From positions 1-20,909 of IMG/VR virus record IMGVR_UViG_3300035698_006736: a stretch of 20,909 bases of DNA; one strand, written 5' to 3'. Of the stretch, positions 1,499 to 20,186 are shown in pieces (the first letter of the stretch is position 1; each line of letters begins with the position of its first letter). The position numbers and the translations under genes were made by a program. Source of the DNA: a virus. The notes beneath the pieces were generated by a model that saw only the letters and a program-made list of their open reading frames with translations, ran no database searches and was not told the DNA's origin.

Positions 1499-2422
1499 TT
1501 AAGCCTTTAGGCCGTATAATTGACATTGACCAGCGGCCACTGTACCAGTTTGAAATGCTAATATAATCGCATTCACCGCAGTCATATCTTTCCATTGAGC
1601 ACCAACAATACTGTTTTGAATTGCTCCATCACTTGCAACACTGAATAATTGACCATTAACAGTTGTATATAGAACGGTATTAGCAGGATCGTAAATTGTT
1701 AACTCACCCCAGACACCTTTTGCACTAGCAGCATTACCAACATTTGCCACAAAGATCATACCAGTGGTCGTTGTGCTTGCCGCTGTACCATTCATGGTAC
1801 GGCTTCCATCGTAATTTGTTATTTGTGCGCTTGATCCATTATTCGTGCTTACATATACAGCAAAAGGAGCGGCATCCGTTGTTGGATGAAAATAATCAAA
1901 CACCACCTTATAAGCATAATAATCAGAACTTAAATTCGCAAAAACAATCGAACTTACAGAAGACGCGGTCTTTGTATTAATTAAAGTCCAACCAGAAACT
2001 GTTTTGGGAAACGATGGGTTTCCAGGCGTTAATATACCAACAGCTGCCGCGCTCAAAGTGGCAGACATTACACCACTATCAAAATCAACAATAACGTTTG
2101 TGGTTGTAGTTGATGCTGATGCCTCTGTCACTGTTCCGTATAATGTTTTTGAACCTTCTGTAATTTTAATGCGTCGATTAGGAGCATACCAGGCAATAGC
2201 TGTTGACGTGGCACTTGATACAGAAAATTTCGTATTTGATATGCGCGATAAAGTAAAACCATAATTTAACCATTGAGCATCTAGGTACCATGATTTTACT
2301 TGACTCATAACTTCCCTAGCCGAATTGTTCACGGTACTAGGAGCCATACCTTCTGGAAAGCCGTCTGGAGGCGTCATATTATTATCTGCTGCGTTTGTAC
2401 TCCATGTGCTAATAGCTGACAT
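1499..2422 (-). CDS. Tail fibre / receptor-binding protein
   Basis: 307 aa. The N-terminus carries NMTPPDGFPEGMAPSTVN followed by NSAREVMSQVKSWY. This PPDG.PEGM.PS.VN...RE.M module is common at the start of fibre and tail-needle-like proteins of tailed phages and probably mediates virion attachment. The remainder is Ser/Thr/Ala/Val-rich beta structure. The C-terminal half (about 145-307) reads SGWTLINTKTASSVSSIVF, then DYYAYKVVFDY, then WGELTIYDP, and ends QCQLYGLKA; it resembles a jelly-roll carbohydrate- or receptor-binding domain. The start has AAAGGA 6 nt upstream. The gene sits between the kinase-methyltransferase and two small adsorption genes. I see no C-type-lectin variable region or template repeat that would mark a diversity-generating element. 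Confidence 0.72.
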   Translation of the reverse strand: MSAISTWSTNAADNNMTPPDGFPEGMAPSTVNNSAREVMSQVKSWYLDAQWLNYGFTLSRISNTKFSVSSATSTAIAWYAPNRRIKITEGSKTLYGTVTEASASTTTTNVIVDFDSGVMSATLSAAAVGILTPGNPSFPKTVSGWTLINTKTASSVSSIVFANLSSDYYAYKVVFDYFHPTTDAAPFAVYVSTNNGSSAQITNYDGSRTMNGTAASTTTTGMIFVANVGNAASAKGVWGELTIYDPANTVLYTTVNGQLFSVASDGAIQNSIVGAQWKDMTAVNAIILAFQTGTVAAGQCQLYGLKA

Positions 2423-2433
2423 GTTAGATCCTT

Positions 2434-3492
2434 TTATTCAAAAAAAAACTTTATTAATGGCCTATCGGCAAACTCATTTGAACCTGAATGCAACAATTTA
2501 AAAGAATAACCTTTACTTATAAAGTAACTTTTTATTTCTTGTAATTCTTTGTCATTATGACACTCAATTAACACACGTGGAAACTTAGATAAATAATTTA
2601 ATAAATCTTCTTTATCTTGAACCCAATGATATAACGATAATGCACTCACAAAATCCCAATCATAGCCCAATTCATCTTTCCAATTCGTATCAGATAAATA
2701 TTTTTTATTTCGTTTATCACCATCAGCAATATTCAATTGTTTAAAATAAGAAACTACTTCATTTATTGCCGCATAATAATTAGCTGCTAATAAAATCTCT
2801 GGCGTTGCATCAACACCAAGAACAAACGCCGGGCTAAAATTTTCAGCAATAGAGCTTGTAAATACACCCTGATTACAACCTAAATCTAAAACGCGTGAAT
2901 CATTATAATCAAATGCATCTTTTAAAATATTCCAGCGCTTTTCCCACATGCGAACGCCAAGCTCACCGTCGATACCATAATAAGGCTTGCCGCCACCATG
3001 CGAACGCGAATTAGAAGCAAACTCAACTATATTTTTTTGCAATGTGTTTTTGGCGTTATCGTCTAACTCAACTAAATGTAAATGATTGAAGAAAGGAAAG
3101 TTAGCCTTTGATTTTGTGGCATGACCAAAATCTATAAATGTAATTTTTTCACCATCAAATAAAATATTAGACGGCTTAATATCATTATGATAAATATTTG
3201 CCTTATGTATTAAATCACGCTCTGTGTTTTTGATGCGTAAAAATTGATTGAACGTCAATTCGCCTAAAGGCTCTCCGCAATAAGTCATATCATAACTATA
3301 TTCTTGTACATCTAATACTTTAGGAACACTTATCGCAGCCTCAGCAAACTTCATCATAGTTACTTCATTTAACATTTCTTTGCGCCATTGCTCCGGCGAT
3401 AACCCTTTGCGATAACTATCTGAAAAAGTCTTGCGAATAATGTTGCTAGATATTTTTTTTACTTCAATTGCTCTTGCACAATCATACTGCAT
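2434..3492 (-). CDS. Kinase-methyltransferase fusion protein
   Basis: 352 aa from the ATG at 3492, preferred because AAGGA lies 9 nt upstream; a GTG at 3522 would add ten residues but has no good ribosome site. Residues about 1-140 form a compact protein-kinase-like fold. They show the catalytic loop YHNDIKPSNIL (H102, D104, K106, N109) and a DFG metal motif at 121-123, with a short N-lobe that includes an NEVTMMKFAE helix. Residues about 165-352 are a Rossmann SAM-dependent methyltransferase: motif I VLDLGCNQG (191-199), acidic motif GVDAT (216-220), and a later SALSLYHW segment. Kinase plus methyltransferase pairs are known in glycan chain-terminating enzymes such as E. coli WbdD, but there the methyltransferase comes first. 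The substrate here is unknown: a glycan, a lipid-linked sugar or a virion protein are all possible. It lies between ejection-type genes and the tail fibre. Domain calls are strong; the role is inference. Confidence 0.75.
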   Translation of the reverse strand: MQYDCARAIEVKKISSNIIRKTFSDSYRKGLSPEQWRKEMLNEVTMMKFAEAAISVPKVLDVQEYSYDMTYCGEPLGELTFNQFLRIKNTERDLIHKANIYHNDIKPSNILFDGEKITFIDFGHATKSKANFPFFNHLHLVELDDNAKNTLQKNIVEFASNSRSHGGGKPYYGIDGELGVRMWEKRWNILKDAFDYNDSRVLDLGCNQGVFTSSIAENFSPAFVLGVDATPEILLAANYYAAINEVVSYFKQLNIADGDKRNKKYLSDTNWKDELGYDWDFVSALSLYHWVQDKEDLLNYLSKFPRVLIECHNDKELQEIKSYFISKGYSFKLLHSGSNEFADRPLIKFFFE

Positions 3493-3512
3493 CAATAAAG
3501 TTCCTTTTTGTA

Positions 3513-3541
3513 TTGCAATCACTTGTAATATGCCATATAAT
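3513..3541 (+). promoter_or_regulatory. Sigma70-type promoter for a plus-strand micro-gene
   Basis: TTGCAA (3513-3518) and a perfect TATAAT (3536-3541) are separated by exactly 17 nt. The expected start near 3548 leaves a leader of about 24 nt before the ATG at 3572. It faces against all other genes in the window. Activity has not been tested. Confidence 0.55.
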
Positions 3542-3571
3542 TAAACATTAATAAGTTATAAGGGTTTTAAA

Positions 3572-3643
3572 ATGTTTATATTAAATTTCATGTTTTGGTT
3601 TACTGTAGTTTATTTAATTTCAAAATGGCGTCAAGATCGTTAA
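3572..3643 (+). CDS. 23-residue single-pass membrane peptide, antisense to the operon
   Basis: The only plus-strand gene I would support. ATG at 3572 and TAA at 3641-3643 encode 23 residues: a hydrophobic aromatic stretch (MFILNFMFWFTVVYLIS) followed by a basic tail (KWRQDR). This is the shape expected of a tiny inner-membrane peptide with a cytoplasmic C-terminus by the positive-inside rule. AAGGG at 3560-3564 lies 7 nt before the ATG, and a good sigma70-type promoter sits just upstream. Its stop overlaps the stop of the convergent ejection gene (they share TTAA) inside an inverted repeat. Phages often encode very small membrane peptides acting in superinfection exclusion, lysis timing or toxicity, but no family is recognised here. 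The AT-rich gap could produce such a frame by chance; the coincidence of promoter, ribosome site and transmembrane pattern is the evidence. Confidence 0.45.
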   Translation: MFILNFMFWFTVVYLISKWRQDR

Positions 3644-3671
3644 AAGATTTGTTTTGTTAAAGATTTTAACG
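3638..3671. repeat. 8-bp perfect inverted repeat at two convergent stop codons
   Basis: CGTTAAAA (3638-3645) and TTTTAACG (3664-3671) are exact reverse complements separated by 18 nt; inside, TTT and AAA could extend the stem past two mismatches. The left arm contains both the minus-strand TAA (3640-3642) and the plus-strand TAA (3641-3643). No T tract follows on either strand, so it is not a canonical intrinsic terminator. Confidence 0.5.
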
Positions 3672-4602
3672 GGCTTGGCAACCCAAGCAATCTCATTGCT
3701 GGATCAATTGCTAGCGCGCCAATTATGCCTTTTTTTATTGGTGCAAATCTTGCATATCTTCTATATTGATCGCGCCCAAGCCTATTAAGTGCCGCAATAT
3801 CTTCTTGCCCACCTGCTTCAAGTGCTGAAAGTTTTTCGGTCAAAAGCCTATCTCTTGTTCGAAGGGCTTCTCTGCCAAAACTTCTTTCGGCAAAAGAAAA
3901 TGGATTTTTAGAATGCCCTACTCCAATTTTGCGCAAATCAGATTGAAGCTCGAACAAATCCTGGTAACCGCCTTGTCGCGCTCTGCTCATTAAATTTCTA
4001 TATGGTTGTGTGTTTGGCAAATATTGTTCAATATCATTTAAAACAGGTTCAGATATTCTTATAGGCTGCAATCCTCTTTGTTCCGCTAGCCTGCTTGCCT
4101 CTATCAAAGGAGCGGCGGCACTTCTTTGAAATAATAATGGAGCGGCAGCCCTAGCAATTCCAACCCCTGCAATCGCCTCGGGAGCATATTTGGCTGATGC
4201 TTGAATAGCCTTATCTGATAAAGTTTTATGTTCTGGTAAGCCTACAGCTTTTGAATAATCAAAATCTTTTGATGGTAAATAATCTAATGGATTAAGGTTT
4301 GCATATCCTTCTTGAGCAAATGGGGATAGATCAACCATTCCTGCCTGTTGCGCCCCACTTGTTAGCTCTGTCAATCTATTTTGCAATGGTTTTAACATCC
4401 CTAAAGAAGAACTACCACCCTGCGCTAAACCAGATAATATATTTCTAGGCAGTTTATTTAAAAATCCCATTTCATTTTGTGGTTGCGTTTTGTTTTGATC
4501 ATATTGTTCTGGTGATATGCCACCAAACAAATCATTGCTGTTAGAAACAGTTGCATTATTTTGCATGCCAGTCGGAGCAACACCACCAAATAAATCAGCC
4601 AC
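3640..4602 (-). CDS. Probable internal virion / DNA ejection protein C
   Basis: 320 aa, starting at a GTG (4602) with AAAAGGGG immediately upstream; it overlaps the previous gene by 8 nt. The N-terminus contains two DLFGG.(A/S)P repeats (MADLFGGVAP and NDLFGGISPEQ), like short peptide tags in some virion cargo or ejection proteins. Residues about 45-110 are low-complexity and polar. A segment near 135-165 (YAPEAIAGVGIARAAAPLL) is amphipathic or membrane-active. The C-terminal half is helical and rich in Arg, and ends IIGALAIDPAMRLLGLPS. No enzyme motif is visible. Position, as the last of four consecutive proteins after the gp10-like and GNAT genes, and composition fit the ejection proteins of podoviruses (P22 gp7/gp20/gp16 or T7 gp14-16 class by role only). 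I would not assign it to a specific family. Confidence 0.5.
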   Translation of the reverse strand: MADLFGGVAPTGMQNNATVSNSNDLFGGISPEQYDQNKTQPQNEMGFLNKLPRNILSGLAQGGSSSLGMLKPLQNRLTELTSGAQQAGMVDLSPFAQEGYANLNPLDYLPSKDFDYSKAVGLPEHKTLSDKAIQASAKYAPEAIAGVGIARAAAPLLFQRSAAAPLIEASRLAEQRGLQPIRISEPVLNDIEQYLPNTQPYRNLMSRARQGGYQDLFELQSDLRKIGVGHSKNPFSFAERSFGREALRTRDRLLTEKLSALEAGGQEDIAALNRLGRDQYRRYARFAPIKKGIIGALAIDPAMRLLGLPSPLKSLTKQIF

Positions 4603-7492: not shown

Positions 7493-9009
7493 TAACGATC
7501 ACCTTTGTTCTTGAAATCAGTAATATCAAACCCTTGAATGCCTTTAAAATTTCCAGTAGTAGTTAATTTTATTCGATGATAACGACCTGAACTTCTAGCG
7601 GTGGCATAACCTGAATTAGTTAAACTCAAATTGTTAGACCATGAAACATTATCAGATAAAGTATCACGCGCACCAATGCGCATATAAACCGATGCACTAC
7701 CACTATCAGAATCAACAAACGGGCGTATTCTATTTATTTGAACGCGCCCACCTGGTTGCAATTGGAACTCACCAGTTACAATTTCAGTGTCTAACGCATC
7801 GCCATCTAACGTTGAAAAAGAATAAACGTATGGTGGTTCACTATTCCCTATGCGCATAACCCCAAATAAATTTTTATTACCCATGTATGCCGGGCTATCT
7901 AATGAGTATGGCAATGTTTCTAATGTTTGACTGCCACTACCATAATTGTCTAATTCCTCTAATGTATAACCTTTAGATAGAGTATTAAAAATCAATGAAT
8001 TTTTTATTTCTGCAATTGTCCATCTGCTTGTTGCATCTTTTGCGTAATTAAAAAATATTATTTTGTCGTTTTCAAGCGTAGGCGCATTTACAGAACGGTA
8101 TGACCAGGCGCAAATTGTAGTGTAGGGATAGCGCATTGTGGTAATTTGATTTACAAAAGATGGATCAAAATCATCAAAGAAAAACTTGTTAACTTTATCG
8201 GTTCCAACAGGTACGCTAGTTTGACCATCAAACAAATAAAATCCATCTTGCCCAATGTACGCAATAACATCACCTAGGTTTATTTGTCCGCCACGTGATA
8301 ACGCGCCATTTGCATTATTCACAACGTCAAATTGGAATATTATCGGGCTTCCAACGTACGTCATTCTCACAATGCCTTTTTCTTGGAAAATTACACCGCC
8401 AAAATCACAACTGTGGATACTTTGAACCCATCCAAATGTATTATTTAAATCTTGATAATCTGCCTGCGTTGTTGCGGATACAGTCCATGAAGTATGTGCG
8501 CCAATACCAGACCATCGAACTCGTTGCGGATAAAATGTACCACCATCATTGGTGTTTCCCACTACAACAAAGTTATTTATTGATGCAATATGCCGAGCTT
8601 TTGGGGGCGATCCCCCAAGAACTGCAAAAGCCGATGAACTGGTTATGTTCCATACTTGAATGGCATCTTGAAAATTAGTTGCTAAAACATAATTGCCGAA
8701 CTTGGTGAATTCCCATCTATCTAATTCAGTACCGTTATAACCACCGCTGACTGAAACATCAGCGAAATTGGTATCAGCAGTATATAACTTGCTTGCAGTC
8801 CCTACCCAAGTATAAGTAACGCCTGCATCTTCTTCGTCACGCGCAGAAAATGCCCCAATAGGTTCTTCATCAATAGTATTACCGGATGAATCAACAACTG
8901 ATGGAATTGGCAAATATTCATTATCGCCAGGCAAAACGTTTGTTGCGGTAATTAGCCCCTGATTATCAAAAGGTGAATCATCTGGTCGCCATTCCCCGAA
9001 CTTAATCAT
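7492..9009 (-). CDS. P22 gp10-like packaged-DNA stabilisation / tail hub protein
   Basis: 505 aa. It opens MIKFGEWRPDDSPFDNQGL with ATNVLPGDNEYLPIPSVVD. This 'FGEW.PD...F.N.G...A.NV.P....Y.P.P' start, followed by GAFSARDEEDAGVTYTWVGT and SKLYTADTNF, is typical of podoviral stabilisation/hub proteins. The repeated WEFTKFGNYVLATN, RHIASINNFVVVGNT and VIAYIGQDGFYLFDG units fit beta-propeller-like blades. The protein closes the portal channel after packaging and forms the tail hub with the adaptor. Length fits P22 gp10 (about 470 aa) with a C-terminal beta extension (SASVYMRIGARDTLS, YATARSSGRYHRIKLTT). AAGGGG lies 5 nt before the ATG. It follows the adaptor gene and is coupled to a small beta protein. 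Confidence 0.72.
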   Translation of the reverse strand: MIKFGEWRPDDSPFDNQGLITATNVLPGDNEYLPIPSVVDSSGNTIDEEPIGAFSARDEEDAGVTYTWVGTASKLYTADTNFADVSVSGGYNGTELDRWEFTKFGNYVLATNFQDAIQVWNITSSSAFAVLGGSPPKARHIASINNFVVVGNTNDGGTFYPQRVRWSGIGAHTSWTVSATTQADYQDLNNTFGWVQSIHSCDFGGVIFQEKGIVRMTYVGSPIIFQFDVVNNANGALSRGGQINLGDVIAYIGQDGFYLFDGQTSVPVGTDKVNKFFFDDFDPSFVNQITTMRYPYTTICAWSYRSVNAPTLENDKIIFFNYAKDATSRWTIAEIKNSLIFNTLSKGYTLEELDNYGSGSQTLETLPYSLDSPAYMGNKNLFGVMRIGNSEPPYVYSFSTLDGDALDTEIVTGEFQLQPGGRVQINRIRPFVDSDSGSASVYMRIGARDTLSDNVSWSNNLSLTNSGYATARSSGRYHRIKLTTTGNFKGIQGFDITDFKNKGDR

Positions 9010-9018
9010 GTTTTCCCC

Positions 9019-9645
9019 TTATGATTGAAAAGGGCGGTTCATAACGCCTTTTTGGAAGTTTTCAGTTTGATCCATTAACATTTGATAAGCATCCATTTCT
9101 AATTCTTTAGCGTCTGCGGATGAATCTTTATCGTGTAAAATTTGTTTATATAATATCCATTCAGCGCGCGCACGAATTAAATCCGTGGCAATTGATATAG
9201 TGGTGAAATCGTTTTCATCGGTATCGGCACTTAAATCAGTATATTCTTTATCGTAATACACTGTAATAGTTCGAACCGCGTTAGGATTAGGGCTAAACCA
9301 AATTTCTTGTTGATACCATGCGTAATCGGTTGGATCACCATCGTAATTAGTTGGATCGGTATTTAATATATAATCTAAACTACGCTTAAAAACCTCATAA
9401 TTAAAACCGTTAGTCGTGATCTCTAAATAATTAATCTCTCGAATATCAGACGGAATACCTTCCGCAGTTCCATAAACAGAAGTTCCCGAAACTAAAGAAA
9501 AAGTACCATTCGTTTCTTGAAAATAAAAACCTTCAGTAGAATAATGAGAAATCGCCCTATTAATCGCGTTTTGTATCTGACTGTTTAAATCAGTTCTATC
9601 AATGTCATCTGCAATAAATGCTTGTAATTCAGCGAATGTGCTCAT
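9019..9645 (-). CDS. Head-tail adaptor protein (P22 gp4-like)
   Basis: 208 aa. Starts MSTFAELQAFIADDIDRTDLNSQIQ and continues with an alpha helix containing AINRAISHYSTEGFYF; then a beta region (SDIREINYLEITTNG, YAWYQQEIWFSPNP, RTITVYYDKEY) and a C-terminal helical bundle (DLIRARAEWILYKQIL, then SSADAKELEMDAYQMLM). The 'I..AI.....E.F.F.E', 'P.......YY....L', 'LI.ARA...L......D' layout is that of podoviral adaptors, which form a 12-fold ring under the portal. The ribosome site is AAGGTAGG inside the end of the preceding 54-aa gene. The next gene is the gp10-like hub, the expected partner. Confidence 0.68.
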   Translation of the reverse strand: MSTFAELQAFIADDIDRTDLNSQIQNAINRAISHYSTEGFYFQETNGTFSLVSGTSVYGTAEGIPSDIREINYLEITTNGFNYEVFKRSLDYILNTDPTNYDGDPTDYAWYQQEIWFSPNPNAVRTITVYYDKEYTDLSADTDENDFTTISIATDLIRARAEWILYKQILHDKDSSADAKELEMDAYQMLMDQTENFQKGVMNRPFQS

Positions 9646-9648
9646 AAC

Positions 9649-9813
9649 CTACCTTTTTTTTCGCGGCCTTCCTTTTTTAGGAGCGCCAAGTTTTCCAGCA
9701 ACCTTAATTAAATCTTCCGATTGTATTGGTGGCACGCGTTTTATTGTTTTTTCTGCAAAATTAAAATTATCATTATCTTTTGCATTTTCAATCAATACTT
9801 GACGTCTACGCAT
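9649..9813 (-). CDS. 54-aa basic protein with C-terminal AT-hook-like motif
   Basis: Encodes 54 residues starting MRRRQVLIENAKDNDNF and ending KLGAPKKGRPRKKR. The C-terminal KKGRPRKKR matches the AT-hook core (basic-GRP-basic), which binds the minor groove of AT-rich DNA and would suit this AT-rich genome; the middle is acidic/polar with no recognised fold. Its ATG lies within the last codons of the GT8-like gene (8-nt overlap, TTTGATGCGTAG), and the next gene starts 3 nt after its stop, so it fits the operon tightly. It may be a small DNA-binding or virion-packaged protein; the role is unknown. Lack of a clear AGGAG site is compensated by coupling. Confidence 0.6.
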   Translation of the reverse strand: MRRRQVLIENAKDNDNFNFAEKTIKRVPPIQSEDLIKVAGKLGAPKKGRPRKKR

Positions 9814-10510
9814 CAAAATTACCCATTACTTTATATAAAGGAACTTTTTTCCCATCGGCATCCGTTGCTGAATGAACCGAACCGCCCATTACAGTTTCCC
9901 ATGACTCATGAATCCTAGACGCATACGCTGCATCATGCCACCAAATCTGCGAGTGCTCGCAATCACTTGTTTCTTGAAATCCTGGCACGCCTTGAGTGTA
10001 ATGAATCAATGATACGTCGTTAGTCGGTTTATCGTAACCCACTAAATGATTCCAGCGTTGCGGCAATTCCCCGATTTCTTCATCAGGCAAAAAACCAATA
10101 GCATGCAGGTTTTTAGCTGTTTCTATATATTCAGGCGTTAACATCTTGCATTTTTCATTATTGAAAAGCATGACCGACGCCCATTCAAATTTTAACTTCC
10201 CTTTACGCACAAAAATAGAATGTTCATCGTCTGCAAAATCAAATAATTTCGCTATGTCATCAACTAACAACATATCTGCATCTAAAAACAAACTCCATCC
10301 TTTGTAATCGCATAACCACGGAGCTAAAAACCTAGAAAAAGTAAATTCTGTTAATCCTTTCCTTTCAATAGGCAATTGATGCAAAACTAAAGGAGTAATT
10401 GCCACGGGCTTGCTGCTGCGCATGGCAATACTCGAATTTAACACAGTTAAAGATAATGGTTGTCTAGGATCAACACCAATGAAAACCCTTAACGGTACAT
10501 TTTTACTCAT
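9806..10510 (-). CDS. GT8-like glycosyltransferase (GT-A fold)
   Basis: 234 aa. Starts with PLRVFIGVDPRQPLSLTVL, the nucleotide-sugar-binding first strand, then AITPLVLHQLPIERKGLTEFTFSRF and GWSLFLDADMLLVDDI, with the DXD metal/donor motif at about 77-79. Later segments: WASVMLFNNEKC, RWNHLVGYDKP, LIHYTQGVPGFQETSDCEHSQIW in shortened form. I recognise this as a phage and bacterial family of GT-A (GT8-like) enzymes, often beside the class I methyltransferase with the TLPDGRNAHL motif that also occurs here. Donor and acceptor are unknown; host LPS/capsule or a virion protein are the main possibilities. Ribosome site AGGTG 4-5 nt upstream. It lies in a carbohydrate module between head and tail genes. 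Confidence 0.78.
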   Translation of the reverse strand: MSKNVPLRVFIGVDPRQPLSLTVLNSSIAMRSSKPVAITPLVLHQLPIERKGLTEFTFSRFLAPWLCDYKGWSLFLDADMLLVDDIAKLFDFADDEHSIFVRKGKLKFEWASVMLFNNEKCKMLTPEYIETAKNLHAIGFLPDEEIGELPQRWNHLVGYDKPTNDVSLIHYTQGVPGFQETSDCEHSQIWWHDAAYASRIHESWETVMGGSVHSATDADGKKVPLYKVMGNFDA

Positions 10511-10527
10511 ACGACACCTACTTATTT

Positions 10528-10695
10528 TTAATAACCCATTTTCTTTGAAGATTTAGCGCTTTTCATAGAATCAGCCATAGGTATTGTTCGACCCGCTGGA
10601 TTATGATCAATCGCTTTTTTTTGCATGGTTAATTTACTGCTAGAAGCATTAACGCGTTTACCAATGTTTTGTGTTTCCATATCATTTCTTTTCAT
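10528..10695 (-). CDS. 55-aa basic Lys/Ser-rich protein, unknown
   Basis: Encodes 55 residues starting MKRNDMETQNIGKRVNASSS and ending MKSAKSSKKMGY. It is strongly basic and polar, with no membrane segment or Cys; probably disordered. AGGAG lies 7 nt before the ATG, a clear site that supports translation. The gene starts inside the last codons of the upstream methyltransferase (14-nt overlap) and ends 17 nt before the GT8-like gene. No family is recognised; it could be a small DNA-associated virion protein like the 54-aa neighbour. Confidence 0.6.
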   Translation of the reverse strand: MKRNDMETQNIGKRVNASSSKLTMQKKAIDHNPAGRTIPMADSMKSAKSSKKMGY

Positions 10696-11239
10696 TTTGA
10701 ATCTCCTTGGGTGACGCTAAAATTAAATAATCTTGTAGTGGTATTTCGTAACCTTCATCAATTTTGTTATTAGTATACGAAATGATTGTATAATATTCAC
10801 TAATTTTCGAAAACCACCAAGCACCATCTTTAACTAATAAATGAGCGTTACGCCCATCAGGTAAGGTTTTTTTCGCTACATTGCCGCTAACAACTATTAA
10901 AGCTATTTTTTTAGTCTTGCTCGCCATATGTTCAATAACGTTTTCAATACAATCTGGCTCTATGTGTTCTAATACGTCACCGCAAAAAAGCAAATCAGCA
11001 GGTTCAGGATCTAAACTATGAACTTTAATCGCAGGATCGTATTGTTTAATTAAAAATGGCATGTTTTGCTGCAACATACCCTTACCACAACCATAATCTA
11101 AAACATCATGAGTATCTAAACTCTTTAACAAATCCATCAAATGGCCAACGTATTTTTTGCAATTAGCCCCAAAGCCTTCTTTGTTTTTGTGCATTTCTTC
11201 TAATTGCTTTTTGTATTCATCGCTTATCAATTTTTTCAT
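10682..11239 (-). CDS. Class I SAM-dependent methyltransferase
   Basis: 185 aa. SAM-binding motif I VLDYGCGKG at 46-54, a shortened acidic region (YDPAIKVHSLDPEPADLL), then motif GDVLEHIEP at 87-95 and a signature TLPDGRNAHLLV (about 125-136) followed by WWFSKISEYY. The 'VLDYGCGKG', 'PADL....DVLEHIEP', 'LPDGRNAHL' series marks a methyltransferase family widespread in phages, usually next to glycosyltransferases. The acceptor is unknown; sugars or a small molecule are more likely than DNA because no target-recognition domain is present. GAGGGTGA ribosome site 4 nt upstream of the ATG, 23-nt overlap with the TPR-glycosyltransferase gene, and overlap with the next small gene make a tight translational chain. 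Confidence 0.8.
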   Translation of the reverse strand: MKKLISDEYKKQLEEMHKNKEGFGANCKKYVGHLMDLLKSLDTHDVLDYGCGKGMLQQNMPFLIKQYDPAIKVHSLDPEPADLLFCGDVLEHIEPDCIENVIEHMASKTKKIALIVVSGNVAKKTLPDGRNAHLLVKDGAWWFSKISEYYTIISYTNNKIDEGYEIPLQDYLILASPKEIQNEKK

Positions 11240-12704
11240 TTATCACCCTCACCGCTTCGTCTATACAATAATCCCAATCATTAAACTCTTGTTGCCAAAT
11301 GTTATGAACCGAATTAAACCATGGCATACCTTCACCATATACCCCTTGTTGCCACATGCCACGTTTAGGGCACAACTGATATGTTTCAACACCCAACGCA
11401 CCAGCTAAGAAAATAACGCTTTGTGGGGCGCATACAATGAAATCTAATTCATCTAACAAACAAGCCGTTAAATCATAATCATCTATTATATCTTGATACA
11501 CAAAAACATTTTTTAATTTGTTTTCTTTGGCAACCTTCATCAATTGTTCGTTGTGTTCTGGCTTATATTGCAATGAAATAAAATCAGCATCACATTTTAA
11601 TATTCGTAATAATTGATCAAAAGCAATCGTTCTAAAATGACCGTTAGTTTTCATTAAACCACCAGTCCATGAAAACCCTATTTTTAAACGTTTGGATTTT
11701 TTCTTAATGGTTTTAGGCAATAATTGTTTTAACTTATCATCCGCTTTCAAATAAGCTTCGCCCGAAAAATCCTCTTTCTTATTCCGATAAAACTGCGCAA
11801 CTTCTGTTATAGGAATAAATGAATCTGGCTTTATTCCCAATTGCCAAACGCTGTCCATGTCTTTTCGTGTTCCATAAATAGGAGCTTTAGGCCAAGCTCT
11901 TTTAAATAAGTTTTGTAATCGTGGGTGACAATCAAAAATAATGCGAGTGTCTTTCATCATGTCCGGCAAAATAGACGCGAACATTAATTCATCGCCCAAA
12001 CCTTGTTCGCCTAACACGGCCACAATTTGAGTTTTGTCGCCTTCCCATTTAGGCGTTGTGGATTCTTCATCATGATAATTTTTAACGCGCTTATCGGGAT
12101 GAACTACAGAATAATATTTGTAATTTTCCCAGCCTTTTTGATAATCGCCTTTTTCTAAATAAGCTAACGCCATATTAAATCGTGGTGTATCTCTATCTAT
12201 ATTATCTTTTAAAGCCAAGCTTTTATTATAATAATCTAACGCAATATCAGGCGTACCGTTATTGGTAAAGCAAGAACCTAAATTACTGTATATATCGGCT
12301 AGGGTATAATTGAATTGCTCTTTATTGGGAAATAGATTGCTACCTTCTTTTTCCATGGTTTCGATTAATTCAAGGTAAAGAGCAACAGCTTGTTTGCGTT
12401 GTTCGTTGTTTTTATAGAGGATACCTAGATTGCTACCAGCATTAACGTGGCGTTTGTCTGCGCGATATACTACAGAAAATAATACTTGCGCTAAACCTTC
12501 ATGTTTGCGAAGCATCTGTATGCAACCAATGTAAAATATTGCAGCAATGTTTGTGGGATCGATATTTAAAACGCGTTGAATGTAATGTTCTGCTTCATGC
12601 AGTATTTCTATATCATCAGTTTCACGAGCTTGATTAATTAATGGTTGAGCTTTTTCGAAAAGAGCATCTATTTTTATTTTTACTTCTTTTTCCAAATCGT
12701 TCAT
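11217..12704 (-). CDS. TPR-repeat glycosyltransferase (GT-B, GT9/GT41-like)
   Basis: 495 aa. Residues about 30-190 hold tetratricopeptide-type helical repeats (EAEHYIQRVLNIDPTNIAAI; NAGSNLGILYKNNEQRKQAVALY in shortened form; YSNLGSCFTNNGTPDIALDYYNKSLAL; FNMALAYLEKGDYQKGWENY). The C-terminal half is a GT-B fold: the GEQGLGDELMF loop at 222-232, IGFSWTGGLMKTNGHF near 332-347, and the donor-side stretch FIVCAPQSVIFLAGALGVETY near 424-444. This architecture matches TPR-linked heptosyltransferase/GT41-like proteins; the TPR part usually binds a protein or chain acceptor. It is the first gene after a terminator and begins the carbohydrate module. The ribosome site is weak (GTGA), and a TATAAT lies about 18 nt upstream of the ATG, so the leader would be very short. 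Sugar and acceptor are unknown. Confidence 0.8.
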   Translation of the reverse strand: MNDLEKEVKIKIDALFEKAQPLINQARETDDIEILHEAEHYIQRVLNIDPTNIAAIFYIGCIQMLRKHEGLAQVLFSVVYRADKRHVNAGSNLGILYKNNEQRKQAVALYLELIETMEKEGSNLFPNKEQFNYTLADIYSNLGSCFTNNGTPDIALDYYNKSLALKDNIDRDTPRFNMALAYLEKGDYQKGWENYKYYSVVHPDKRVKNYHDEESTTPKWEGDKTQIVAVLGEQGLGDELMFASILPDMMKDTRIIFDCHPRLQNLFKRAWPKAPIYGTRKDMDSVWQLGIKPDSFIPITEVAQFYRNKKEDFSGEAYLKADDKLKQLLPKTIKKKSKRLKIGFSWTGGLMKTNGHFRTIAFDQLLRILKCDADFISLQYKPEHNEQLMKVAKENKLKNVFVYQDIIDDYDLTACLLDELDFIVCAPQSVIFLAGALGVETYQLCPKRGMWQQGVYGEGMPWFNSVHNIWQQEFNDWDYCIDEAVRVINEKIDKR

Positions 12705-19206: not shown

Positions 19207-19396
19207 TATTATCTTTTCCGCTGATTTCCATATTTTGGGTAGGTTTTCCAAGCATTCTATCAAGAACTGTATTAATTGCTTGCATATCGCCTTTGAGTGC
19301 TTTTTTAATTAACGCTTTTAAAATGTGTTGCGCCAATTCGTCGCCATCTATTTGCTGCTCGAGTAATTTATTTAACTGGTTCGATAACTTGCTCAT
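19097..19396 (-). CDS. 99-aa packaging-associated protein of unknown role
   Basis: 99 aa, helical: LSNQLNKLLEQQIDGDELAQ, then ILKALIKKALKGDMQAINTVLDRM in shortened form, then LGKPTQNMEISGKDNN. The 'KAL.GD..AI...LDR.LGKP.Q.ME' segment is one I recognise in small phage proteins coded before TerL, some grouped with terminase small-subunit or DUF5681-like proteins. There is no clear HTH, so it is probably an accessory to the TerS coded farther upstream. AAGGAG lies 10 nt before the ATG; the start overlaps the glycosyltransferase by 29 nt, and the end lies inside the TerL gene. Confidence 0.6.
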   Translation of the reverse strand: MSKLSNQLNKLLEQQIDGDELAQHILKALIKKALKGDMQAINTVLDRMLGKPTQNMEISGKDNNAIQFDSINALQAIDERFAKLVAAGKNSDDAISDKD

Positions 19397-20186
19397 TTTC
19401 GATTAACTCCTTGGCTCGATATTTTAAATTGCCTTTCAAATGTGTTGCGTAGTCAGCTAGAAAACACTTAGAAAAAACATCTTCGCCCAGCTCGCCCTCG
19501 CACATTTTAACAAAGTGGTTTGAATCCATGGACTTTCTTATTTCATCAAAAACAAAACTATCGTGCCATTCAGGCAATTTGAATACGTCATGAGTTGAAT
19601 AAGCATCGCAGACACCATTAATCAAATCCATTGATGCAGAGCCGCTTTTAAATATCATGAATCCGCATTCACTATGAATATAATTTCTAGCTAAATATGC
19701 AATTGATGCGCCATTGATGAATAGGTTTTTAATTTCTTGTTCAAGGTTTTGCATGTAATCAATCATCATGATATCGGCATCAAGCCATATCAAATAAAAG
19801 TTTTCATGATGCCGCATAGCTTTTTTAAATGCGTGTTGCATTGCATACCATTTACGGCAAAAAGCAAAAGCATTTAATTTGTAATTGTAACCACTTTTCT
19901 TTTGATCATCGAGCCAAATTCCTTCATGAATCGGTAAAAATTCTTTACCTTTTTTGCTTTCATCAGATTTTATTTCTAATAAAAACTTAAGCAATTCAGG
20001 CGAGCAATGATAAAGGTTTCTATAGTTTGTACTTTCATAACTTATTTTTGGGGTTAAAGTTATATTATTCTCATAATAAACTTTGAGATAATGTTCTTTT
20101 GTGGCTTTTACCATCAACGGCAAAGTGTATTGAGCGATTTTGTCAAAATAAGATTCGCCGAAACTCGTTACAAATTCAATGTTCAT
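19368..20186 (-). CDS. GT-A glycosyltransferase-like protein in the packaging block
   Basis: 272 aa. Starts MNIEFVTSFGESYFDKIAQY, a first strand then helix typical of GT-A folds. FLPIHEGIWLDDQ (about 83-95) and KLNAFAFCRKWYAMQHAF lead to YLIWLDADIMMIDYM, with the DXD motif at 136-138. Later SIAYLARNYIHSECGFMIF and PEWHDSFVFDEIRKSM give the acceptor-side elements; HDS-type segments occur in galactosyltransferase-like families. Substrate unknown. It is placed between TerS and the 99-aa protein, where packaging genes are normally contiguous, so it looks like an inserted moron without its own promoter. The ribosome site is weak (GAGAC). It differs from the GT8-like enzyme at 9806-10510 in size and motif context. 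Confidence 0.7.
   Translation of the reverse strand: MNIEFVTSFGESYFDKIAQYTLPLMVKATKEHYLKVYYENNITLTPKISYESTNYRNLYHCSPELLKFLLEIKSDESKKGKEFLPIHEGIWLDDQKKSGYNYKLNAFAFCRKWYAMQHAFKKAMRHHENFYLIWLDADIMMIDYMQNLEQEIKNLFINGASIAYLARNYIHSECGFMIFKSGSASMDLINGVCDAYSTHDVFKLPEWHDSFVFDEIRKSMDSNHFVKMCEGELGEDVFSKCFLADYATHLKGNLKYRAKELIENEQVIEPVK

Follow-up and report, generated by a model that had tools for sequence, protein, structure and literature searches.

Capping of chain ends with methyl phosphate is a known step of O-antigen assembly in bacteria: the cap terminates the chain and permits its export. In the O8 and O9a clusters of Escherichia coli, the place after wzm-wzt is where chain terminators, WbdD among them, typically stand. 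WbdD of E. coli O9a joins a kinase and a methyltransferase that together make a methyl-phosphate terminus, and its methyltransferase requires residues H132, H133, R203, and Y16 (PMC3482155). ORF6 of Klebsiella pneumoniae O7 is a second methyl-phosphate terminator, in which a different type of kinase accompanies the methyltransferase (PMC11231755). The NoeA/Lani_1194 family, tied to glycan decoration, has the kinase first and the methyltransferase second, and the Lcin_0519 family, also a kinase with a methyltransferase, is remotely related to WbdD, often carries a coiled coil, and occurs with Wzm/Wzt and glycosyltransferase genes (PMC9758233).

The window analyzed here is a stretch of 20,909 nucleotides, positions 1 to 20,909 of IMG/VR virus record IMGVR_UViG_3300035698_006736. 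Its minus strand carries a late virion operon (terminase, portal, capsid, head, and tail genes), and the window shows no sign of lysogeny genes along its length. One gene of this operon encodes a kinase-methyltransferase protein that we read, with a probability of roughly 0.6 and from sequence comparison, as a bifunctional glycan-modifying enzyme of a rare kinase-then-methyltransferase family, one that would phosphorylate and then methylate a sugar of either host polysaccharide or a virion glycan.

A kinase-methyltransferase fusion gene

The gene and the features read within and next to it are as follows.

2434..3492, minus strand: kinase-methyltransferase fusion gene, 352 aa; a single ORF with a ribosome-binding site, Pfam matches to Pkinase (9.4e-8) and Methyltransf_12 (2.8e-8), and six full-length bacterial relatives
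3501..3506, minus strand: Shine-Dalgarno-like AAGGAA, 8 nt before the ATG at 3492, read from the sequence
3016..3492, minus strand: kinase half, about residues 1-159 (K21, E43, H102-N-D104, N109, D121-F-G123), from Pfam, NCBIfam, and alignment
3166..3189, minus strand: catalytic loop HNDIKPSN, residues 102-109, read from the sequence and the alignment
3124..3132, minus strand: DFG motif, residues 121-123, by alignment; the bacterial relatives have DFD
2434..3015, minus strand: methyltransferase half, about residues 160-352, from Pfam Methyltransf_12 (residues 202-302) and alignment
2932..2952, minus strand: family signature R181-M-W-E-K-R-W187 (R[PM]WxxRW), ahead of motif I; R, W, R, and W invariant in 7/7 members
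2866..2886, minus strand: SAM motif I, D203-L-G-C-N-Q-G209, from Pfam and alignment

The frame is intact from the ATG at 3492 to the stop at 2434. The mechanical ORF opens farther upstream, at a GTG at 3522, but the ATG is preferred as the start because of the AAGGAA element ahead of it. The GC content of the gene is low (0.326), but its GC3 of 0.252 is that of the neighboring late genes; the gene therefore appears adapted to the phage genome and no very recent arrival, and a recent transfer from host to phage, which the low GC might bring to mind, is unsupported. The 147-bp gap upstream of the gene (3493-3639) holds a very short plus-strand frame with an ATG near 3573.

Pfam and NCBIfam detect both domains in this one ORF, which confirms the fusion of a kinase to a SAM methyltransferase proposed earlier from the letters alone. 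In the kinase half, the Pfam match to Pkinase exceeds its cut-off by 0.5 bits, and the matches to APH (9.5e-6) and RIO1 (3.6e-5) are both over cut-off. The top NCBIfam kinase match is Bud32 (3.1e-10, residues 16-130), with a score of 39.9 bits that falls under the cut-off of 125 for that profile. Five residues, E43, H102, D104, N109, and D121, are identical in all seven aligned family members, that is, the phage protein and the six bacterial relatives described below. K21 was paired with the family Lys by eye (IIRK vs IIIK), MAFFT being off by one at that place.

The sequence-only reading had called this half a complete small kinase domain. The catalytic motifs HND, N, and DFG are indeed all there, but completeness does not extend to the C-lobe, which must be very short, since the half spans about 157 aa vs about 232 aa in the Bacteroidota relatives (about 75 residues fewer). 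The helix ahead of the catalytic loop is short as well. Such shortening might point to a degenerate kinase half, in which case the protein would work as a methyltransferase only. We consider this unlikely: E, HND, N, and DFG are all kept, together with a Lys at the expected place, and in the Verrucomicrobiota relative L199, encoded beside wzm-wzt, the stretch after DFD is just as short. Structure models computed without an alignment had pLDDT values of 38.8 (whole protein) and 37.6 (residues 1-165), both too poor to read.

The second half is placed by Pfam and NCBIfam as a class I SAM methyltransferase at about residues 197-302, with the Methyltransf_12 match over the Pfam cut-off. All three motifs of the family are found in the phage protein, namely RMWEKRW (R[PM]WxxRW), DLGCNQG ([DE]LG[CA]NxG), and ECH (E[CG]H), and invariant positions in 7/7 members further include Y171, Y172, R181, W183, R186, W187, G205, N207, G209, W290, E310, H312, and R344. 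The chain stops with the methyltransferase domain, with no coiled coil after it.

Comparison with WbdD and other described enzymes

WbdD (PDB 4azs/4ax8/4uw0) resembles the phage protein in that a single chain holds a kinase of the HxDxxxxN/DFG type together with a class I methyltransferase, in a glycan setting. The kinase catalytic residues of the phage protein, HND...N and DFG, are those expected from WbdD. The order differs, however: WbdD runs methyltransferase, kinase, then coiled coil, whereas the phage protein runs kinase, methyltransferase, then end, so that the C-terminal coiled-coil ruler of WbdD is missing. When the family profile was compared with PDB, WbdD was the top whole-sequence match (3.3e-15), in two stretches of swapped order. 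The proposal that WbdD combines the same activities in reverse order is thus fair as an analogy. Its top rank arises because two modest domain matches add up. With the kinase profile alone, phosphorylase kinase and others rank above WbdD; with the methyltransferase profile alone, WbdD ranks about 32nd (0.0027), behind a field that favors arginine methyltransferases, phosphoethanolamine methyltransferases, and the 7SK methyl-phosphate capping enzyme. Because single-domain profiles rank other proteins closer, WbdD is, as far as sequence can tell, the best architectural analogue rather than a strict or near homologue.

The residues essential in the WbdD methyltransferase are matched in part. H132 corresponds to H289 of the phage protein and H133 to W290, and most relatives have N-W at this pair. 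Phage R344 and Y171/Y172, which are invariant, stand at places comparable to R203 and Y16 of WbdD, with no alignment joining them.

K. pneumoniae O7 ORF6 differs further from the phage protein, having its methyltransferase first, then an AmiN-like kinase, a carbohydrate-binding module, a coiled coil, and GT modules. That O7 reached methyl-phosphate termini with another type of kinase makes convergence on a capping function plausible. The family described here, set against the Lcin_0519 family by description only, could be a branch of it.

A different assignment would make the phage protein a member of the NoeA/Lani_1194 family, decorating a secreted lipo-oligosaccharide. The domain order and the glycan-type setting are indeed alike (PMC9758233), but the kinase motifs differ: a NoeA-like ORF in locus L090 has SDATAYN and IDH where the phage protein has HxDxxxxN and DFG. 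The two profiles align over only 41 columns around the SAM motif, with no homology over both domains, and we reject this membership as very improbable. Among methyltransferases lacking a kinase, the nearest plasmid neighbors of the Bacteroidota relative belong to TIGR04290, with E-values of 1e-4 to 1e-6.

A rare family in bacterial polysaccharide loci

Searches of 2.9 million viral contigs, 50,697 phage records, and 72,556 plasmids recovered no relative, the plasmid collection giving matches to single domains only. The viral contigs were queried with the whole protein, each domain, a two-member alignment, and three motif patterns, one of which demands an AAA Lys codon and would miss the window itself, where the codon is AAG. 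Six HND-type matches among these contigs proved to be ordinary full-length protein kinases. Among related viral loci this absence counts for little, because most are fragments that end before the fiber region. Motif scans of 84,980 genomes returned 0 and 43 matches, and the three of the 43 with the right motifs were ordinary kinases.

Searches of whole bacterial genomes, with each taxon represented by a sample, found the family. The first relative was a Bacteroidota protein in a 421-aa frame, 35% identical over residues 133-319 (5.2e-21); used as a query it identified three more proteins with the same domain order, for a total of four in 164 genomes. An enlarged family profile then added two Verrucomicrobiota relatives from 115 genomes. 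In all, 1,948 genomes yielded six full-length bacterial relatives (L144, L150, L151, L152, L195, and L199), four from Bacteroidota and two from Verrucomicrobiota, each with the kinase followed by the methyltransferase. Phyla are named here after the record titles of the center loci. No full-length relative turned up in the sampled Pseudomonadota (398 and 299 genomes), Gammaproteobacteria (114), Cyanobacteria (146), or deltaproteobacterial group (58); profile matches in Cyanobacteria and Gammaproteobacteria covered one domain only and were not accepted as members. The family is rare.

In the multiple sequence alignment, the phage protein is 25-32% identical to its bacterial relatives. Pairwise comparison by blastp with the Bacteroidota member L152 scored 104 bits, with the two domains collinear across residues 32-316, while 50 shuffled versions of the protein reached a top score of 30.8 bits. 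The relatedness is therefore no chance match, and membership of the phage protein in the kinase-methyltransferase family stands on sequence.

All six full-length bacterial relatives sit in polysaccharide loci, with GT2, Wzx-like flippase, and Wza/Wzy-type genes nearby. In genome G547, the gene begins about a dozen bases after a GT2 gene, with more glycosyltransferases and a sugar-transferase-like gene close by. Two other relatives have a Wzx-like flippase immediately downstream, recognized by eye (Pfam gave no call for either), and Pfam confirms Bac_transf and Glycos_transf_2 neighbors in the Bacteroidota loci. In the Verrucomicrobiota locus L198, the gene directly follows a Polysacc_synt_3 flippase gene, and Poly_export and Wzy_C are encoded in the same locus. 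In L199, also from Verrucomicrobiota, it comes directly after the wzm-wzt pair, which encodes an ABC2_membrane permease and an ABC_tran/Wzt_C ATPase. The L199 protein (7520-10096) is about 830 aa long, with the kinase-methyltransferase as its C-terminal part and a first stretch of about 450 residues without a Pfam match.

These contexts bear on the choice of substrate. A Bud32/APH-type kinase with a methyltransferase might instead act on tRNA, protein, or an antibiotic, as the Bud32 and APH matches of the kinase half and weak matches to tRNA-methyltransferase profiles would allow. Yet all of these matches span short catalytic stretches or one domain, and in the loci read no full-length relative lies beside KEOPS, tRNA, or resistance genes, which leaves such a substrate quite unlikely. 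Homologues acting on tRNA or an antibiotic, which the sequence-only reading had named as grounds against a glycan role, were thus not what emerged: the homologues lie in glycan loci, and Bud32 and APH are profile neighbors of the kinase half only. Its link from enzyme to glycan, drawn there by inference, gains support from the context of all six relatives, one of them directly after wzm-wzt. We propose glycan modification because every full-length relative lies in a glycan locus and because the catalytic residues and R[PM]WxxRW are conserved; the function would then be one that the phage protein and its bacterial relatives have in common.

The phage neighborhood

The phage gene itself stands outside any polysaccharide locus, in the late virion operon, with a glycosyltransferase cassette 6 kb away. 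Its flanking features are these.

3640..4602, minus strand: late gene upstream of the kinase-methyltransferase gene, without a family match in Pfam or PHROG
1499..2422, minus strand: fiber-like virion gene after an 11-bp gap downstream of the kinase-methyltransferase gene; matches PHROG 14820 and 30879 (function unknown), N-terminus in common with a virion gene in locus L059
453-1130: clearer tail-fiber match, by PHROG

The gene had been placed immediately before the tail fiber. The gene order bears this out as far as the fiber-like ORF 11 bp away is concerned, but the PHROGs matched by this ORF are all of unknown function, and the clearer fiber match is the one at 453-1130. In L059, the site ahead of the fiber-like gene is taken by a different ORF (9219-9917), which reads like an HNH/AP2-type gene without a Pfam call, and the kinase-methyltransferase gene may therefore occupy a cargo slot. 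Contig L003 (IMGVR_UViG_3300022821_000357) encodes terminase, portal, and capsid proteins 99-100% identical to those of the window and ends before the kinase-methyltransferase region. Beside the terminase genes of the window, a 272-aa ORF (19368-20186) resembles a further glycosyltransferase by its DADIMMID motif; it had no match in Pfam, PHROG, or NCBIfam, and a 50% identical copy is present in L002.

Directly behind the capsid gene, at 9806-12704, lies the cassette of three genes.

11217..12704, minus strand: TPR protein with a probable GT9-like C-terminal half, a possible glycan-modification partner; Pfam TPR matches
10682..11239, minus strand: small methyltransferase; PHROG 24759 methyltransferase, 1.4e-26
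9806..10510, minus strand: GT8-like glycosyltransferase; Glyco_transf_8 at 9.6e-4, below cut-off

The GT9-like half of the TPR protein is suggested by a Glyco_transf_9 match of 6e-4 in one relative, PDB matches coming through the TPRs only, and a profile of the GT8-like family picks up WbbM, an O-polysaccharide transferase (8e-6). In the 40 related loci whose sequence continues for 5 kb or more past the capsid gene, all three genes occur in that order in 12 (L006, L013, L023, L026, L036, L039, L042, L050, L055, L057, L078, and L092), two of the three in 3, and none in 25. This distribution marks the cassette as a nearly all-or-none mobile module. The cassette may glycosylate the virion. A 1,958-aa Bacteroidota ORF in L212 (3557-9430; also in L147) has a TPR-like start and a C-terminal methyltransferase followed by a kinase, the order of WbdD, and lies among flagellin genes, a location suggesting that kinase-methyltransferase pairs can act on protein glycans such as those of flagellin.

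Discussion

By analogy with WbdD and K. pneumoniae O7, phosphorylation would come first and methylation of the phosphate second. The kinase half would phosphorylate a sugar hydroxyl, probably at a chain end. The product would then be methylated by the other half, in the simplest case on its phosphate, to give a methyl-phosphate type cap as in WbdD; methylation of another hydroxyl would look the same in these comparisons. The phage enzyme would be expressed with the late structural genes, as its place in their operon suggests, and its target would be either host surface polysaccharide or a glycan attached to the virion. Modification of the virion fits the data as well as capping of host polysaccharide does.

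If host surface polysaccharide were the target, capping might alter or stop its chains and so block rival phages or re-adsorption of progeny. The surface-polysaccharide loci of all relatives are consistent with this, as are the adjoining fiber-like gene and the use of O-antigen as receptor by Burkholderia phage CSP3, a distant relative by its capsid (PMC10269572). The position of the gene within a late structural operon, the window's lack of visible lysogeny genes, and the want of a partner gene for glycan export argue the other way, and we hold this target to be possible, at well under even odds.

A putative virion glycan, built by the TPR-glycosyltransferase, methyltransferase, and GT8-like proteins of the phage and finished by the kinase-methyltransferase, is a comparably tentative proposal. 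The cassette is present in the window, is complete in 12 of the 40 related loci, and directly follows the capsid gene, and the giant TPR/methyltransferase/kinase ORF among the flagellin genes of one Bacteroidota genome offers a parallel. Against it, the kinase-methyltransferase gene lies 6 kb from the cassette and is seen in no relative that carries the cassette.

Returning to the glycan-modifying enzyme that we favor, its fullest form is a speculative one, in which a podovirus-type phage captured a glycan-capping kinase-methyltransferase of an undescribed family and might combine it with the glycosyltransferase cassette that it carries, giving methyl-phosphate ends to a virion glycan or to host polysaccharide. 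The bacterial relatives, one of them beside wzm-wzt, are candidates for a further class of kinase-methyltransferase terminator. Should the phage copy prove active, it would represent a new means by which a virus alters a receptor or its own coat.
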